A stretch of 64,000 bases of DNA from Micromonospora sp. WMMD1120. Lineage in GTDB: Bacteria > Actinomycetota > Actinomycetes > Mycobacteriales > Micromonosporaceae. This document shows, in pieces, positions 3,975 through 64,000 of the stretch. The stretch covers positions 4,124,501 through 4,188,500 of the forward strand of contig NZ_JARUBO010000005.1 of the NCBI RefSeq assembly GCF_029626235.1, written 5' to 3'. The stretch's first letter is position 1. Each line of letters begins with the position of its first letter. Both the position numbers and the translations under genes were made by a program. Below the pieces are notes generated by a model. It ran no database searches. It was not told the DNA's origin and saw nothing but the letters and a program-made list of their open reading frames with translations.

Positions 3975-4025
3975 CGGCCACCGACCTCTCCACCCGTCTC
4001 ACATCCAGAAAGGCAAGTCCTCACC

Positions 4026-5132
4026 ATGCGTAAATTCTTCGGCACGTCGGTGGTCGCCGTGAGCGCCGCCGCGATGCTGGCCCTCGCGGGCTGCGGCTCC
4101 GGCCGTGACGGCGACTCCGGCAGCTCCGGTGGCGGCGACGCCAAGGGCTTCGCGGCGAACTCGCTGATCGGCGTGGCCCTCCCGGCCAAGACCTCCGAGA
4201 ACTGGGTCCTCGCCGGTGACCTGTTCACCAACGGGCTCAAGGAGGCCGGTTTCCAGGCTGACGTGCAGTACGCCGGCGCGTCGACCACTGTCGCCGACCA
4301 GCAGGCCCAGATCACCGCCATGACCACCAAGGGCGCCAAGGTCATCGTCATCGGCGCGACCGACGCCGCGCAGCTGTCGACCCAGGTCGCCGCGGCGCAC
4401 GCCGCCGGCGCCAAGGTGATCGCGTACGACCGCCTCATCACCAACACGCCGGACCTCGACTACTACGTCGCGTTCGACAACTTCAAGGTCGGCCAGCTCC
4501 AGGGCCAGGCCCTGCTGGACGGCATGAAGGCCAAGAAGCCGAACGGCCCGTACAACATCGAGCTGTTCTCCGGCTCGCCGGACGACAACAACGCCGGTGT
4601 CTTCTTCAACGGCGCGATGGACGTGCTCAAGCCGGAGATCGACAAGGGCAACGTCGTCGTCGCCTCGGGCCAGAAGGACGTCAAGCAGACCGCCATCCAG
4701 GGCTGGAAGGCCGAGGGTGCGCAGGCCCGCATGGACCAGCTGCTCACCTCGACCTACGGCAACAAGGAGCTGGACGGCGTCCTCTCCCCGAACGACACCC
4801 TGGCCCGCGCGATCCTGACCTCGGTCAAGGGCGCCGGCAAGCCGATCCCGGTGGTCACCGGTCAGGACTCCGAGGTGGAGTCGGTCAAGTCGATCGTCAA
4901 GGGCGAGCAGTACATGACGATCAACAAGGACACCCGCAACCTGGTGAAGGAGACCATCAACATGGTCAAGGCTCTCCAGGCCGGTAACACCCCGCAGGTG
5001 AACGACACCAAGTCCTACAACAACGGCAGCAAGGTCGTCGACACGTTCCTGCTCCCGCCGGTGGCCGTCACCAAGGCCAACGTGGTCGAGGCGTACGCCA
5101 ACGACCCGAAGCTCGCGCCGCTCACCAAGTAA
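4026..5132 (+). CDS. chvE: Multiple-sugar-binding lipoprotein (ChvE type)
   Basis: A 368-residue solute-binding protein delivering sugar to the GguA/GguB transporter. It begins MRKFFGTSVVAVSAAAMLAL and has a lipobox LAGC with the lipidated Cys at residue 23, so it is anchored on the outer face of the membrane. After a Gly/Ser linker the mature part starts SLIGVALPAKTSENWVLAGD, followed by a repeated alpha/beta pattern and DDNNAGVFFNGAMDVL, as in ChvE-like periplasmic-binding type I proteins. The start has an AAAGG element 12 bases upstream. It is the last gene of the operon and a perfect hairpin terminator follows 24 bp after the stop. Confidence 0.9.
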   Translation: MRKFFGTSVVAVSAAAMLALAGCGSGRDGDSGSSGGGDAKGFAANSLIGVALPAKTSENWVLAGDLFTNGLKEAGFQADVQYAGASTTVADQQAQITAMTTKGAKVIVIGATDAAQLSTQVAAAHAAGAKVIAYDRLITNTPDLDYYVAFDNFKVGQLQGQALLDGMKAKKPNGPYNIELFSGSPDDNNAGVFFNGAMDVLKPEIDKGNVVVASGQKDVKQTAIQGWKAEGAQARMDQLLTSTYGNKELDGVLSPNDTLARAILTSVKGAGKPIPVVTGQDSEVESVKSIVKGEQYMTINKDTRNLVKETINMVKALQAGNTPQVNDTKSYNNGSKVVDTFLLPPVAVTKANVVEAYANDPKLAPLTK

Positions 5133-59030: not shown

Positions 59031-59303
59031 GGGGCCCCCATCCATCGAAAGATGAAAGATTCTCTGAGAGCGCGATCAGATCACCCGCGTGCGACGGGCG
59101 TCAATGGCCCGTAACAGATTCGTTCGACGAAGGACACGCGGGCGTACTGTTTGCTGGCTCACGTCCGGGGGGCCCCGCGCGGCGGTTCGCGCGGGCCCTC
59201 CGGGACTTGTCCCAGGCTCGGGCTAGGCTCGCTGCGGCGCGCCACGCCGGCTGATCTCGCCGGTGACCGGCTGCACACCGCCGAGACCGGGGAGTACGAC
59301 CAG

Positions 59304-62300
59304 TTGACCGCAGAGCCTGACACCCTGTACGGGGCCGATGACCTCACCCACCTCGAGGGGCTGGACGCCGTCCGCAAGCGTCCCGGCATGTACATCGGCT
59401 CCACCGACAGCCGTGGCGTGGGTCACCTCGTCAACGAGATCCTCGACAACTCCACCGACGAGGGTGTCGCCGGCCACGCCAGCCACGTCGAGGTGATCCT
59501 GCACCCGGACGGCTCGGTCCAGGTCGACGACGACGGCCGGGGCATTCCCACCGACGTGCACGCCAAGTCCGGCATCTCCGGCGTCGAGCTGGTGCTGACC
59601 CGCCTGCACGCGGGCGGCAAGTTCGGCGGCTCCGGCTACAAGACGTCCGGCGGTCTGCACGGCGTCGGCGCGTCGGCCGTCAACGCGCTGTCGCGCCGCT
59701 TCGACGTGACAGTCCGCCGTGGCGGCAAGGTCCACGCGATGTCGTTCCGGCACGGCGTTCCCGGGATCTTCGACGGTGCCGGGCCGGACGCGCCCTTCAC
59801 CGCCGGCCCCGGCCTGCAGGTGACCGGCGCGATGAAGCGCGGCCAACGCACCGGCACCTCGATCCGCTGGTGGCACGACGCCCGCTACTTCGAGACCGGC
59901 GCGGCGCTCGACGTCGACGCGGTCCGGATGAAGCTGCGCAACACCGCCTTCCTGGTCCCCGGCGTGACCTACCTGCTGCGTGACCTGACCGGCGAGACGC
60001 CGGTCGAGGAGCGGTTCCACTACCCCAACGGCCTCAGCGACATGGTGGAGTTCCTCGCCCCGGCCGGCGACCGGCCGGTCTCCGGCATCCTGCTGGTCAA
60101 CGGCGAGGGCACCTACCGGGAGAACGCCGCCGACGCCAACGGTGTGATGCAGTCCAACGTGCAGCGTCGTGCCGAGGTCGAGGTGGCCTTCCGCTGGGGC
60201 ACCGGTTACGAGCGCACCGTCGAGTGCTTCACCAACACCATCCGCAACGCCCACGGCGGCACCCACCGCAAGGGCTTCGAGCGGGCCCTGGTGCGCACCC
60301 TCGCCGACGCGGTCCGCAACACCCGCGGCCTGCTCAAGGCCAAGGAGGAGCCGCCCACCCTGGACGACGTCCTGGAGGGCATGACGGCGGTGGTGCACGT
60401 GCGCATCCCGGAGCCGCAGTTCACCTCGCAGACCAAGGACGAGCTGTCCACCACCGGCATCACCAAGGTGATCCAGGGCCTGGTCGACGCGCACGTCAAG
60501 GCCTGGCTGGAGGACCGGCGCACCAAGGCCGAGGCGCGGACCGTCCTACAGAAGATCGTCGACGCGGCCCGGGTGCGGCTCACGCAGAAGCAGCAGAAGG
60601 ACGCCGCCCGGCGTAAGACCGCCCTGGAGGGCGCGTCGATGCCGCCGAAGCTCGTCGACTGCCGGGCAACAGGGGTGGAACGGAGCGAGCTGTTCATCGT
60701 CGAGGGAGACAGCGCCCTCGGTTGCTTCACCGGTGACACGAAAGTCGCACTGGCCTCGGGGCAGAGTCGGTCCTTCGCTGAATTGGCTGCAGACTGGCAG
60801 CGAGGCATCAGCCACTTTGGTTACACGACCAACAAGGCCGGTCGGGTCGTCGTCGCCCCCCTGGTGGAACCCCGGCTCACCAAGTCTGACGCGCCGTTGG
60901 TGCGGGTCACGCTCGACAACGGCGAGTCGGTGCGTTGCACACCTGATCATCGGTTCCGGCTGCGCGACGGCTCCTACCGTCGGGCTGACTCGCTTGTCGA
61001 GGGCGACTCCCTGATGCCCCTGTATCGCCGCCTCTCCAGTAAGGCGGAAGGGCATAACCTCCAGGGCTACGAGCGAGTCTGGATGAACGACCGGGACGAA
61101 TGGGTCTACACCCACTACCTGGCTGACGCGTGGAATCTGCGCCATGGCAAGGACAGCGCAACCAACGGGAATGTCCGTCACCACATCGACATCAACAAGC
61201 GCAACAACGACCCCCGCAACCTGCGGCGGATGACCTGGCCGGATCACACCGCACTGCACGCCGCAATGATGGGCGACCACGTCCACGCCGGTTGGCGGGA
61301 GTGGTTCGCCAACGGCGGCCGGGAGTTCCGGTCAGCCATGCTGACAAGTCAGTGGCGAGATCCTGATTTCCGTGAGGCGTGTCTCGCTCGCCTGTTCGCG
61401 CTCAACGAGTCGCCAGCGTTTCGCGCTAGATTTGAGAAGGGCTTCCAGGAGTGGTACAACGCGCTCGGCACCGAGGAGCAAGGCGCTTACGCCGAGCGGA
61501 TGCGTGAGCGGCAGGCCACCTACTGGGCGCACCCCGAACATCGGGCAGCGGCAGCCGAACGGGTTCGCCAATACTTTGCTGACCCGTCTCGTCGCCAGCA
61601 GTGGCGCGAGCGGTCAGTACAGCAGTGGCAGGACCACGACTTGCGTACCTGGCGCTCTCGGAAGACCGTAGAGCAGTTTGCGGACCCCGCCGAGCGAGAC
61701 CGCCAGCGCAATGCGGTGTTGGCCTGGCATCGGGACAATCCAGAATTCGGTGATCAACATTCCCGTCGCCAGCAGAACGAAGGTCGCCGTCTAGCAGCGC
61801 TCCGTCGGCTGGCACCGTTGCTGGCGCATCCCGACGAGGAATTGTCAGCCACTTACGAAGCCGAGCGGGTGCGTACCGCTCGCACCGGCCTCCGCTTCGC
61901 ACGGCTTCTAGCCCTGTACGACGGAGATTACGGCCGACTTCGTGACGCCGCCTCGCTTGTCAATCACCAAGTGGTGTCGGTGGAGGTGCTCGACGAGACA
62001 GCCGACGTCTACGACCTGACGGTTGACGGGTACCACAACTTCGCCCTCGAAGCTGGCGTGTTCGTCCACAACAGCGCCCGGGTAGCGCGGACCTCCGAAT
62101 ACCAGGCGTTGCTGCCGATCCGCGGCAAGATCCTCAACGTGCAGAAGGCCAACCTCCAGCAGGTTCTGGACAATGCCGAGTGCGCCGCCATCGTCCAGGT
62201 CCTCGGCGCGGGCTCGGGGCGCACGTTCGACCTCGCCGCGCTGCGGTACGGCCGCGTGCTGATCATGGCCGACGCCGACGTGGACGGCGCGCACATCCGT

Positions 62301-62711
62301 ACGCTGCTGATCACTCTCTTCGCGCGGTACATGCGTCCGCTGATCGAGGCCGGTCGGCTCTACGCCGCGATGCCGCCCCTGCACAAGATCACGACGAAGG
62401 GGCGTAACCCGCAGACCGTCTACACCTACACCCAGGTCGAGATGGAGTCGACGGTCCGCAGTCTGGAGAAGGCCGGCAAGCAGATCGTCACCCCGATCCC
62501 GCGCTTCAAGGGTCTGGGTGAGATGGACGCCGACGAGCTGTGGGAGACCACGATGAACCCGGCCACCCGGGCCGTCCGGCGGATCACCCTCGACGACGTG
62601 GAGGCCGCCGAACGGATCCTCGAACTCCTGATGGGCGAGAAGGTCGAGCCGCGCCGCAACTGGCTCATCGACTCCGCCGACCGGGTCGACCGGGACGCGA
62701 TCGACGCATGA
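59304..62711 (+). CDS. parE: DNA topoisomerase IV/gyrase subunit B (ParE type), interrupted by an intein
   Basis: An 1135-residue precursor. The best start is TTG 59304 (MTAEPDTLYGADDLTHLEGL), ten bases after GGGGAG; the frame is open further upstream but without homology. The ATPase has NEILDNSTDEGVAGHASHVE, VDDDGRGIPTDVH and SGGLHGVGASAVNALS. The TOPRIM motif EGDSALG is split by the intein (residues 474-923) before SARVARTSEYQALLPIRGKI, and ADADVDGAHIRTLLITLF follows. Without the intein the protein is 685 residues, normal for ParE/GyrB. Together with the next gene it forms a topoisomerase IV-type pair that decatenates chromosomes. The 273-bp upstream gap holds strong GC hairpins near 59165-59205. 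Confidence 0.93.
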   Translation: MTAEPDTLYGADDLTHLEGLDAVRKRPGMYIGSTDSRGVGHLVNEILDNSTDEGVAGHASHVEVILHPDGSVQVDDDGRGIPTDVHAKSGISGVELVLTRLHAGGKFGGSGYKTSGGLHGVGASAVNALSRRFDVTVRRGGKVHAMSFRHGVPGIFDGAGPDAPFTAGPGLQVTGAMKRGQRTGTSIRWWHDARYFETGAALDVDAVRMKLRNTAFLVPGVTYLLRDLTGETPVEERFHYPNGLSDMVEFLAPAGDRPVSGILLVNGEGTYRENAADANGVMQSNVQRRAEVEVAFRWGTGYERTVECFTNTIRNAHGGTHRKGFERALVRTLADAVRNTRGLLKAKEEPPTLDDVLEGMTAVVHVRIPEPQFTSQTKDELSTTGITKVIQGLVDAHVKAWLEDRRTKAEARTVLQKIVDAARVRLTQKQQKDAARRKTALEGASMPPKLVDCRATGVERSELFIVEGDSALGCFTGDTKVALASGQSRSFAELAADWQRGISHFGYTTNKAGRVVVAPLVEPRLTKSDAPLVRVTLDNGESVRCTPDHRFRLRDGSYRRADSLVEGDSLMPLYRRLSSKAEGHNLQGYERVWMNDRDEWVYTHYLADAWNLRHGKDSATNGNVRHHIDINKRNNDPRNLRRMTWPDHTALHAAMMGDHVHAGWREWFANGGREFRSAMLTSQWRDPDFREACLARLFALNESPAFRARFEKGFQEWYNALGTEEQGAYAERMRERQATYWAHPEHRAAAAERVRQYFADPSRRQQWRERSVQQWQDHDLRTWRSRKTVEQFADPAERDRQRNAVLAWHRDNPEFGDQHSRRQQNEGRRLAALRRLAPLLAHPDEELSATYEAERVRTARTGLRFARLLALYDGDYGRLRDAASLVNHQVVSVEVLDETADVYDLTVDGYHNFALEAGVFVHNSARVARTSEYQALLPIRGKILNVQKANLQQVLDNAECAAIVQVLGAGSGRTFDLAALRYGRVLIMADADVDGAHIRTLLITLFARYMRPLIEAGRLYAAMPPLHKITTKGRNPQTVYTYTQVEMESTVRSLEKAGKQIVTPIPRFKGLGEMDADELWETTMNPATRAVRRITLDDVEAAERILELLMGEKVEPRRNWLIDSADRVDRDAIDA
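60723..62072 (+). mobile_element. Intein with HNH homing-endonuclease domain inside ParE
   Basis: A 450-residue in-frame insertion. It begins with Cys1 (CFTGDTKVALASG, block A), has block B RCTPDHRFRLRDG with Thr73 and His76, and ends VYDLTVDGYHNFALEAG and VFVHN (blocks F and G) with the terminal His449-Asn450. The first extein residue after it is Ser, so all splicing residues are present. The middle carries an HNH-type motif with His153-His154 in VRHHIDINKRNNDPRNLRRM, then repeated helical segments that may bind DNA. Base use is visibly less GC-rich than in the flanking parE, which supports horizontal arrival. Insertion lies exactly between G and S of the EGDSALG-SAR TOPRIM motif. Confidence 0.9.
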
Positions 62712-62743: not shown

Positions 62744-64000
62744 ATGGCACGCCGTAAGGAAGACAAGGTCGATCTCTCCTCGTTCGACCAGGCCGGCGCG
62801 CGGGTCTTCGACAATCCGCTGGTCACCGAGGTCTCCGACTCCTACCTGGAGTACGCGTTCTCGGTCATCCACTCCCGTGCCCTGCCGGATGCCCGCGACG
62901 GCCTCAAGCCCGTGCATCGGCGCATCCTCTGGTCGATGTACGAGCAGGGCTACCGCCCCGACCGAGGGCACGTGAAGTCTGCCCGAATTGTCGGGGATAC
63001 GATGGGAAAGTACCATCCGCACGGCGACACGGCGATCTACGACGCGATGGTCCGCCTCGCGCAGGACTTCTCGCTCAACGTGCCCCTCATCGACGGGCAC
63101 GGAAACTTCGGGTCCCCCGACGACGGTCCAGCCGCGTCCCGCTACACCGAAGCCCGGATGTCCCGGGAGGCGATGCTGCTCGTCGGCGAGCTGGGCGAGG
63201 ACACCGTCGACGTCGAGCCCAACTACGACGGCTCGCTGACCCAGCCGACGGTGCTGCCGGCGGCCTTCCCCAACCTGCTGGTCAACGGCGCGTCCGGGAT
63301 CGCTGTCGGGATGGCCACCAACATGATCCCGCACAACCTCGGCGAGGTGGTCCAGGCGGCCCGCTGGTTGATCAAGCACCCGGACGCCACACTGGACAAA
63401 CTCATGGAGTTCGTCCCCGGCCCCGACCTGCCCACCGGTGGCGTGCTGCTCGGCCTGGACGAGGTGCGCCGCGCGTACGAGACCGGACGTGGCGTGGTGC
63501 GGATGCGCGGCAAGGTCGAGATCGGCCCGATCGAGGGCAGCCGGGGCCGACAGGCGATCACCGTCGTCGAGCTGCCCTACGGCGTGGGCGCCGAGAAGGT
63601 CATCGCGGCGATCACGAACGAGGTCACCAAGACCAAGCGGCTGACCGGCATCGCCGACGTCAAGGACCTCACCGACCGGGAGAGCGGCACCCGGCTCGTC
63701 GTGGAGTGCAAGGTCGGCGTCAACCCGCAGGCGCTGCTCGCCGACCTCTACCGGTTGACCCCCCTGGAGCAGTCGTTCGGCGTCAACAACCTGGTCCTGG
63801 TCGACGGCCAGCCCCGTACCCTGGGATTGAAGGCGCTGTTGGAGGTCTTCCTGGCCCACCGGTACGAGGTGGTCACCCGGCGCACCACGTACCGGCGGCG
63901 CAAGCGCCAGGAACGGCTGCACCTGGTCGACGGCCTGCTGATCGCCCTGCTGGACATCGACGAGGTGGTCCGGCTGATCCGGGGCAGCGACGACGCGCAG
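62744..64000 (+). CDS. parC: DNA topoisomerase IV/gyrase subunit A (ParC type), 3' end beyond window
   Basis: 419 residues of the N-terminal part are present, starting MARRKEDKVDLSSFDQAGAR at ATG 62744, 11 bases after GGGGGAAAG. The DNA-cleavage tyrosine is Tyr134 in AASRYTEARM. The quinolone-resistance region reads GDTMGKYHPHGDTAIYDAMV, with Thr96 at the position of GyrA Ser83 and Asp100 at that of Asp87. The gene starts 32 bp after parE and forms an operon with it. The frame is open to the last base. The partner ParE provides the ATPase and TOPRIM domains. Confidence 0.95.
   Translation, partial: MARRKEDKVDLSSFDQAGARVFDNPLVTEVSDSYLEYAFSVIHSRALPDARDGLKPVHRRILWSMYEQGYRPDRGHVKSARIVGDTMGKYHPHGDTAIYDAMVRLAQDFSLNVPLIDGHGNFGSPDDGPAASRYTEARMSREAMLLVGELGEDTVDVEPNYDGSLTQPTVLPAAFPNLLVNGASGIAVGMATNMIPHNLGEVVQAARWLIKHPDATLDKLMEFVPGPDLPTGGVLLGLDEVRRAYETGRGVVRMRGKVEIGPIEGSRGRQAITVVELPYGVGAEKVIAAITNEVTKTKRLTGIADVKDLTDRESGTRLVVECKVGVNPQALLADLYRLTPLEQSFGVNNLVLVDGQPRTLGLKALLEVFLAHRYEVVTRRTTYRRRKRQERLHLVDGLLIALLDIDEVVRLIRGSDDAQ

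Follow-up and report, generated by a model that had tools for sequence, protein, structure and literature searches.

An HNH-bearing intein in the Toprim motif of a Micromonospora parE-type gene and the probable co-conversion scar in its flanks

The parE-type gene of Micromonospora sp. WMMD1120 is interrupted within its Toprim motif by a class 1 intein carrying an HNH nuclease region and an array of 17-residue repeats, and this element has most probably been moved by repeated homing that co-converted short flanks along with it (probability about 0.83). The stretch of DNA analysed, referred to below as the window, comprises 64,000 nucleotides of one contig of this strain. An earlier note, made from the letters of the window, had placed a 450-residue intein at 60723-62072 in the Toprim motif of ParE, and both the coordinates and all of the splicing residues that it named proved correct. 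The host gene, its partner and the splicing parts of the intein are located as follows.

59304..62711, + strand: parE-type gene, an intein-interrupted topoisomerase subunit B precursor (HATPase, DNA_gyraseB, Toprim and gyraseB_C domains)
60723..62072, + strand: intein of 450 residues, Cys1 to His449-Asn450, followed by Ser+1 (splicing models, junctions, invariant residues)
60723..61037, + strand: N-terminal Hint splicing part, residues 1-105, block B Thr73-Pro-Asp-His76 (intein_Nterm; median dN/dS 0.085)
61947..62072, + strand: C-terminal Hint splicing part, residues 409-450 (intein_Cterm; median dN/dS 0.081 for residues 443-484 of the full-length form)
62744..64000, + strand, running past the window end: parC-type partner gene (PF00521, 443 bits; NF004044, 829 bits, cut-off 654)

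The insertion splits EGDSALG/SAR, with junctions EGDSALG/CFTGDT and GVFVHN/SARVART, and the wider reading is ELFIVEGDSALG / CFTGDT...GVFVHN / SARVARTSEYQALLPI. Pfam Intein_splicing (PF14890) matches the insert with 71 bits (cut-off 35.8), and the NCBIfam models intein_Nterm (TIGR01445) and intein_Cterm (TIGR01443) with 41 bits (cut-off 24.5) and 25 bits (cut-off 15.6), respectively. None of the 39 aligned sequences departs from Cys1, Thr73, His76, His449 or Asn450, and Cys1, TxxH and the terminal HN are kept in 24 of 24 copies checked (22 from the genus and two from other genera), minis of 165 and 230 residues included; the splicing residues have thus survived throughout the 22 genus inteins. 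Judged by these residues and models, the element is a class 1 (Cys1, Ser+1) intein. The intact residues and their conservation argue for splicing, in which the precursor would be translated whole and the Hint parts would fold together, excise the intein and ligate EGDSALG to SAR, restoring the Toprim motif. Chance or misassembly was rejected as the origin of the insert, with 21 other genomes of the genus carrying homologues in parE at the identical site.

The open frame at 59151-62711 (1186 aa from the first TTG) codes for the B subunit of a type IIA topoisomerase, and translation of the parE-type gene probably starts from the TTG at 59304, given an upstream TAG in the relative G027. The parC-type gene begins 32 nt past the stop codon, and no GyrA box was found in this topoisomerase A subunit partner. 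A canonical gyrB (963 bits, over the cut-off) lies elsewhere in the same genome with a GyrA-box ORF just downstream, and gyrB was rejected as the intein host since this copy is empty, with an uninterrupted Toprim site, EGDSAGG/SAKQGRD. The same uninterrupted motif was found in all 30 genus gyrB loci read (L296-L325; 61 matched). The interrupted gene is thus a second gyrB-like gene whose GyrA-like partner shows no GyrA box, in agreement with the ParE-type host of the earlier note, and a ParE-type assignment by gene content is reasonable. The label rests on gene content because both curated ParE models stay under their cut-offs, even on an intein-free relative (TIGR01058, 584 versus 899.95 bits; TIGR01055, 514 versus 723.35 bits); on the same relative, gyrB models score above the ParE models, still under their cut-off. 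The claim that splicing would gate an essential topoisomerase is unproven in its premise, as Streptomyces coelicolor tolerates deletion of parE, though with defects, and requires the gene for circular replicons, according to the available part of the source (PMC3905888). The nearest named relatives of the window genome are Micromonospora inaquosa and M. tarensis. Within 60600-62200 no promoter-like sites were found, and the one terminator-like match is within shuffle expectation. As a separate observation, the strain's own canonical gyrB (L295) presents the Ser-type motif EGDSAGG/SAKQGRD yet contains no intein.

A scan of genome contigs for related inteins returned 42 loci, from Micromonosporaceae, Pseudonocardiaceae, Chloroflexota and Halobacteria. 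The insert follows EGDSA[LG]G at 40 of these, the host being ParE-type in Actinobacteria and GyrB-type (EGDSAGG/S) elsewhere; the remaining two belong to Herpetosiphon and interrupt a different gene. Identity to same-site relatives is 36-41% for the haloarchaeal inteins (L068-L070), 48% for Chloroflexi and 31% for an intein at the same site in a plasmid gyrB of Bacteroidota (Bernardetia). A gyrB intein allele was listed by Soucy et al. in 2014; its members are bacterial in 19 cases, halobacterial in 6 and from another euryarchaeon in 1, and they include Saccharothrix espanaensis, Synechocystis 6803 and Halarchaeum acidiphilum (PMC4071816, available part). The element studied here shares the site EGDSA[LG]G/S and the end motifs of that allele (PMC4071816), as seen in relatives from Halarchaeum acidiphilum, other Halobacteria, Chloroflexi, Bernardetia and Pseudonocardiaceae. 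An allele at the gyrB site is defined by the same site and homologous sequence, and both are found here through the haloarchaeal, Chloroflexi and Bernardetia relatives rather than through the 2014 records themselves. On this comparison the element is a member of a known intein allele at the GyrB-type Toprim site, here residing in parE. Unlike the hosts in the available part of the 2014 listing, the host here is a second, ParE-type gene of a Micromonospora whose gyrB is intein-free. The combination of a ParE host with an HNH element, singled out earlier as deserving attention, is therefore of a kind already known, a gyrB allele with an actinobacterial member having been listed in 2014 (PMC4071816, available part). 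Among the titles and abstract openings listed for open-licence PMC papers, none concerned an intein in parE or in the genus Micromonospora, although one may still have been published. A phage carrier was sought and none was found: a scan of viral contigs, which reaches close relatives only, confirmed no relative of the intein, and the 21 matches among phage records had at most 48% coverage and 37% identity.

The nuclease-bearing part of the intein lies between the two splicing parts.

61056..61280, + strand: HNH nuclease region, residues 112-186, core RHHIDINKRNNDPRNLRR at residues 152-169 (HNH_3, 0.0038; phrog_7545, 1.2e-7; median dN/dS 0.067)
61281..61946, + strand: 17-residue repeat region and linker, residues 187-408 (lag-17 periodicity; median dN/dS 0.139)
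61770..61772, + strand: point of a 34-codon in-frame deletion, located to about one codon (comparison with full-length genus inteins)

The HNH core includes His153-His154, and H153, H154, D156, N161, N162 and P164 stand in nearly invariant columns among the 39 aligned sequences. Pfam HNH_3 scores the window copy at 17.3 bits, under its cut-off of 24.8; it matches 26 of the 39 family members at E 0.1 or better, and HNH families of PHROGs match the window copy (phrog_7545 best). The HNH motif that had been read at His153-His154 is borne out in this way, and the region is a putative homing-type nuclease. The core is kept in 20 of the 22 genus copies, the 316-residue form without repeats among them, and is lost in two. 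Median dN/dS among the 19 genus inteins of at least 1300 nt (171 pairs, of which 0-7 per region were dropped for undefined or tiny dS) is as low in the HNH region as in the C-extein (0.067 and 0.069), is 0.081-0.085 in the splicing parts and is highest within the intein in the repeats (0.139); the value for the N-extein, 0.247, is odd and may reflect ragged alignment near the N-terminus. The apparent purifying selection on the nuclease fits its continuing use. In the same 19 strains synonymous divergence is greater among inteins (0.8-1.1) than in distal parE (0.27-0.30), an excess that may be exaggerated by the intein's lower GC at third positions.

The 17-residue period is real (lag-17 z = 4.6, in a sample of 47 rows of which several are one strain from two collections, with both copies of the repeated L- and G-numbered strains counted), and four of the 39 members match HMG_box_2 weakly, at best with 0.012. 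The repeats are probably a DNA-binding array. They are common to full-length members in Actinobacteria, haloarchaea and Chloroflexi, so that the idea of a peculiarity of the window copy was rejected; called unusual for a compact intein in the earlier note, they turn out to be the family norm, of which the window copy has fewer than usual. Full-length genus copies measure 484 aa, and the 450 aa of the window copy, 34 fewer with the HNH core retained, reflect an in-frame deletion of 34 codons in the repeat region that is absent from the other 21 genus inteins. The relative L002 carries MRRRMTDPSTGHLAKVQAGRTRYVDNVPREERVG at this point, and a short CGTCG direct repeat marks both ends.

For the window copy itself, a reading compatible with homing in the genus is that splicing works while the nuclease is dead following the loss of these 34 codons of repeats. 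This is a live possibility, if a somewhat improbable one: the deletion is in frame, has short repeats at its ends and is unique among the 22 genus copies, and the short forms of relatives have decayed by the same route, against which stand the intact HNH core and the low dN/dS between the window copy and L002 in the HNH region (0.006/0.091).

The distribution of the intein bears directly on its mobility. The parE site could be read in 160 genus genomes, that of the window included, of which 22 are occupied and 138 empty, so that the intein-free alleles of close relatives, proposed earlier as a check, exist in abundance. Eighteen of the occupied alleles hold an intein of 484 aa, the window one of 450 aa, and three hold forms of 316, 230 and 165 aa. 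These genus counts exclude L021 and L022, which belong to other genera; the site was not read in L024-L032 (weak hits at other loci), L033-L035, L078-L081, L089 and L224-L253 are places already counted, and L036-L044, L062, L063 and L072 repeat strains of the G-numbered genomes, for which they stand in within the 39-sequence alignment and the intein tree. In that tree the 11 genus inteins sampled, half of the 22, group as a single clade (100%) that falls among those of Pseudonocardiaceae, with 80-97% support, mostly unstarred, on the branches joining it to them. The lower GC of the insert was confirmed by computation over 60723-62072 (63.9%, versus 70.7% in the N-extein and 67.9% in the C-extein), and third-position GC is 75% versus 93-95% in the flanks. 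The recent arrival that had been proposed from this composition holds in part: the intein would be old in the genus, since its sampled members form one clade, whereas it does appear to have entered separate lineages separately.

On trees of distal parE, from which positions -180 to +90 around the site were left out, the occupied alleles are scattered. With 162 rows, two of them alleles of other genera, the FastTree phylogeny requires 18 changes of intein state, 17 forced by starred branches; with 50 rows (22 occupied and 28 of the 138 empty alleles), the IQ-TREE phylogeny requires 16, of which 12 are forced, and a single occupied clade is rejected (p-AU 7.65e-6). Such counts of changes are blind to the direction of gain or loss. 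By contrast, in the 105 nt at the site (-60 to +45) the same 50 rows place the occupied alleles on one side of a branch with 98% support, and over -120 to +60, with the same 162 rows, the intein state takes 1 change. The linked sequence forms a narrow block on either side of the insertion.

60678..60722, + strand: N-side of the putative co-converted flank block, about 45 nt, with a soft boundary that may extend to about 60 nt (divergence profile)
62073..62102, + strand: C-side of the putative co-converted flank block, about 30 nt and at most about 45, including the Ser+1 codon AGC (divergence profile)

In all 22 occupied strains, divergence from the three nearest empty alleles is 0.17-0.28 within -45 to +30 versus 0.03-0.08 distally, and on both sides of the block it lies at 0-8%. 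At four-fold sites an Fst-like index is 0.076 in the block (26 such sites) versus a maximum of 0.022 over 68 control windows. Mobility is also favoured by the window intein itself, which is 97% identical to that of L036 (the L002 strain) and 93% to that of L037 (the L003 strain), although its distal N-extein is closer to L003 (0.043) than to L002 (0.056). The residue at +1 is Ser in 22 of 22 occupied alleles, whereas among the 138 empty ones it is Thr in 133 (TSR 71, TGR 54, TAR 8) and Ser in 5. An order-level survey matched 107 genomes, 44 of them of the genus; of the 63 outside it, 40 were read at the site. Ser+1 is universal in the 35 Pseudonocardiaceae loci among these (family f15; 7 occupied, 28 empty), and the remaining empty alleles have Thr in two Micromonosporaceae outside the genus and two members of family f10, and Ser in one member of family f5.

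We read the flank block as the co-conversion scar of repeated homing into some 12-17 separated lineages. In this process the nuclease would cut or nick an empty parE near the site, the repeats would probably contact the DNA and lend specificity, and repair from an occupied allele would copy the intein together with about 45 nt of N-flank and about 30 nt of C-flank, the linked pattern of which is the observed part of the scheme. The short tract would carry the intein's own Ser+1, replacing the Thr of most empty alleles, and nuclease and repeat parts would later be lost in some strains while the splicing residues stay. The simplest account would be a single entry into the genus, or into a near relative, from a Ser+1 lineage, with repeated homing within the genus thereafter.

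The main rival is repeated loss from an occupied ancestor, in which the intein was ancestral to the genus and was lost many times through replacement by empty alleles, the flank block being the trace of those losses. The single clade formed by the 11 genus inteins in the tree would suit such a history, as would the decay of the short forms, the raised divergence at the site among empty alleles, the lack of direction in parsimony changes and the correlation of intein with distal parE distances (r 0.64). This correlation suggests that spread has been partly vertical or between neighbours. Replacement by empty alleles should leave tracts of varied length, yet each of the 22 strains shows normal divergence again past about 60 nt. 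Moreover, the TSR and TGR types of empty alleles track the distal tree (13 changes versus a mean of 40.7 in 50 shuffles), whereas intein state is weakly clustered on it (18 changes versus a shuffled mean of 22.6, with 1-2 of 500 shuffles as low), and the nuclease has been retained under purifying selection. Ancestral occupancy with multiple losses is accordingly held to be unlikely.

Far less probable still is a domesticated intein kept for regulation, whose conditional splicing would gate topoisomerase IV activity: its position inside the Toprim motif and the strong conservation of the splicing residues, short forms included, would suit such a role, and the 138 of 160 genus genomes that manage without it, along with its scattered and little-clustered presence, speak against it.

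Under repeated homing with co-conversion, some features of the flanks qualify the picture. Joint movement of intein and flank predicts a tighter correlation between the two, and none is seen, intein distances correlating with the proximal flank at r 0.63 and with the distal extein at 0.64. Third-position diversity of the proximal flank is equally high in occupied and empty alleles (0.314 and 0.321), which suggests that the block is old and has undergone no recent sweep. The weak clustering of intein state on the distal tree, the undirected change counts and the HNH_3 score under its cut-off in the window copy weigh on the same side.

It is proposed, quite tentatively, that the mobile unit is a near-constant cassette of the intein with about 45 nt upstream and about 30 nt downstream, which would convert the Toprim flank and change Thr+1 to Ser+1 in some 12-17 lineages, and that the block is exchanged among empty alleles as a result of nuclease cutting or of escape from it. 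Whether the intein needs Ser+1 may be framed as a hypothesis, and such a requirement need not hold, since Thr is also usable as a +1 nucleophile (PMC10643990, available part).

The nearest precedent for the flank scar is the MCM-d intein of Haloferacales, whose occupied alleles always have Ser+1 and whose empty alleles mostly have Pro, with a few invasions by co-conversion that are reported as rare in the available part of the paper (PMC10643990). The parE alleles resemble this system in that occupied ones always have Ser+1 and empty ones mostly another residue; they differ from the archaeal case, as described there, in the change from Thr to Ser, the bacterial parE host, the HNH nuclease and the 12-17 or so separated lineages (PMC10643990). 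The three states found in one genus (138 empty alleles, 19 inteins of 450-484 aa and 3 shorter forms) likewise resemble a homing cycle with mini-inteins, seen here, unlike in the available part of that description, in a bacterial topoisomerase gene (PMC4071816). The genus offers a natural experiment in which one target gene is represented by 160 readable alleles in occupied, empty and decayed states, with a sharp boundary to the exchanged DNA, and it opens two questions to direct testing in a bacterial chromosome: what length of flank a homing intein drags along, and whether alleles without the intein's +1 nucleophile can be invaded only if the intein supplies that residue itself.

Empty alleles show a related pattern of their own, which counts against the reading of the block as a homing scar. 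Their nearest-neighbour divergence peaks at -45 to +30 as well (rank 2 of 76 windows over 1.2 kb), variability in the block being 0.104 among them versus 0.048 distally, and 17 of the 138 reach the lowest occupied value. A gyrB control (30 of 61 matched genomes) has a mild rise in divergence at this motif, 1.54-fold versus 2.25-fold in parE and sixth in rank among 76 windows, and there is no such rise in parE of Pseudonocardiaceae (ratio 0.94). At four-fold sites the raised synonymous diversity of empty alleles at the site is not significant (p 0.079). The raised block in empty alleles is regarded as a lead; earlier occupancy, evasion of the nuclease or codon composition might each account for it.

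Several minor observations were also made. Weak matches to splicing parts at other loci (E 6e-4 to 4e-7; L024-L032, G043:C24, G027, G129 and G147) possibly represent other inteins. The intein-free parE of G013 (L222) contains an in-frame, low-complexity insert in its N-extein that is rich in ADG, TDG and TGDG. In Herpetosiphon (L076 and L077, match at 4001-4693), a related intein C-terminus, VVHN / SVDGDAAAAYRYT, occurs in a host gene that is not a topoisomerase B gene.
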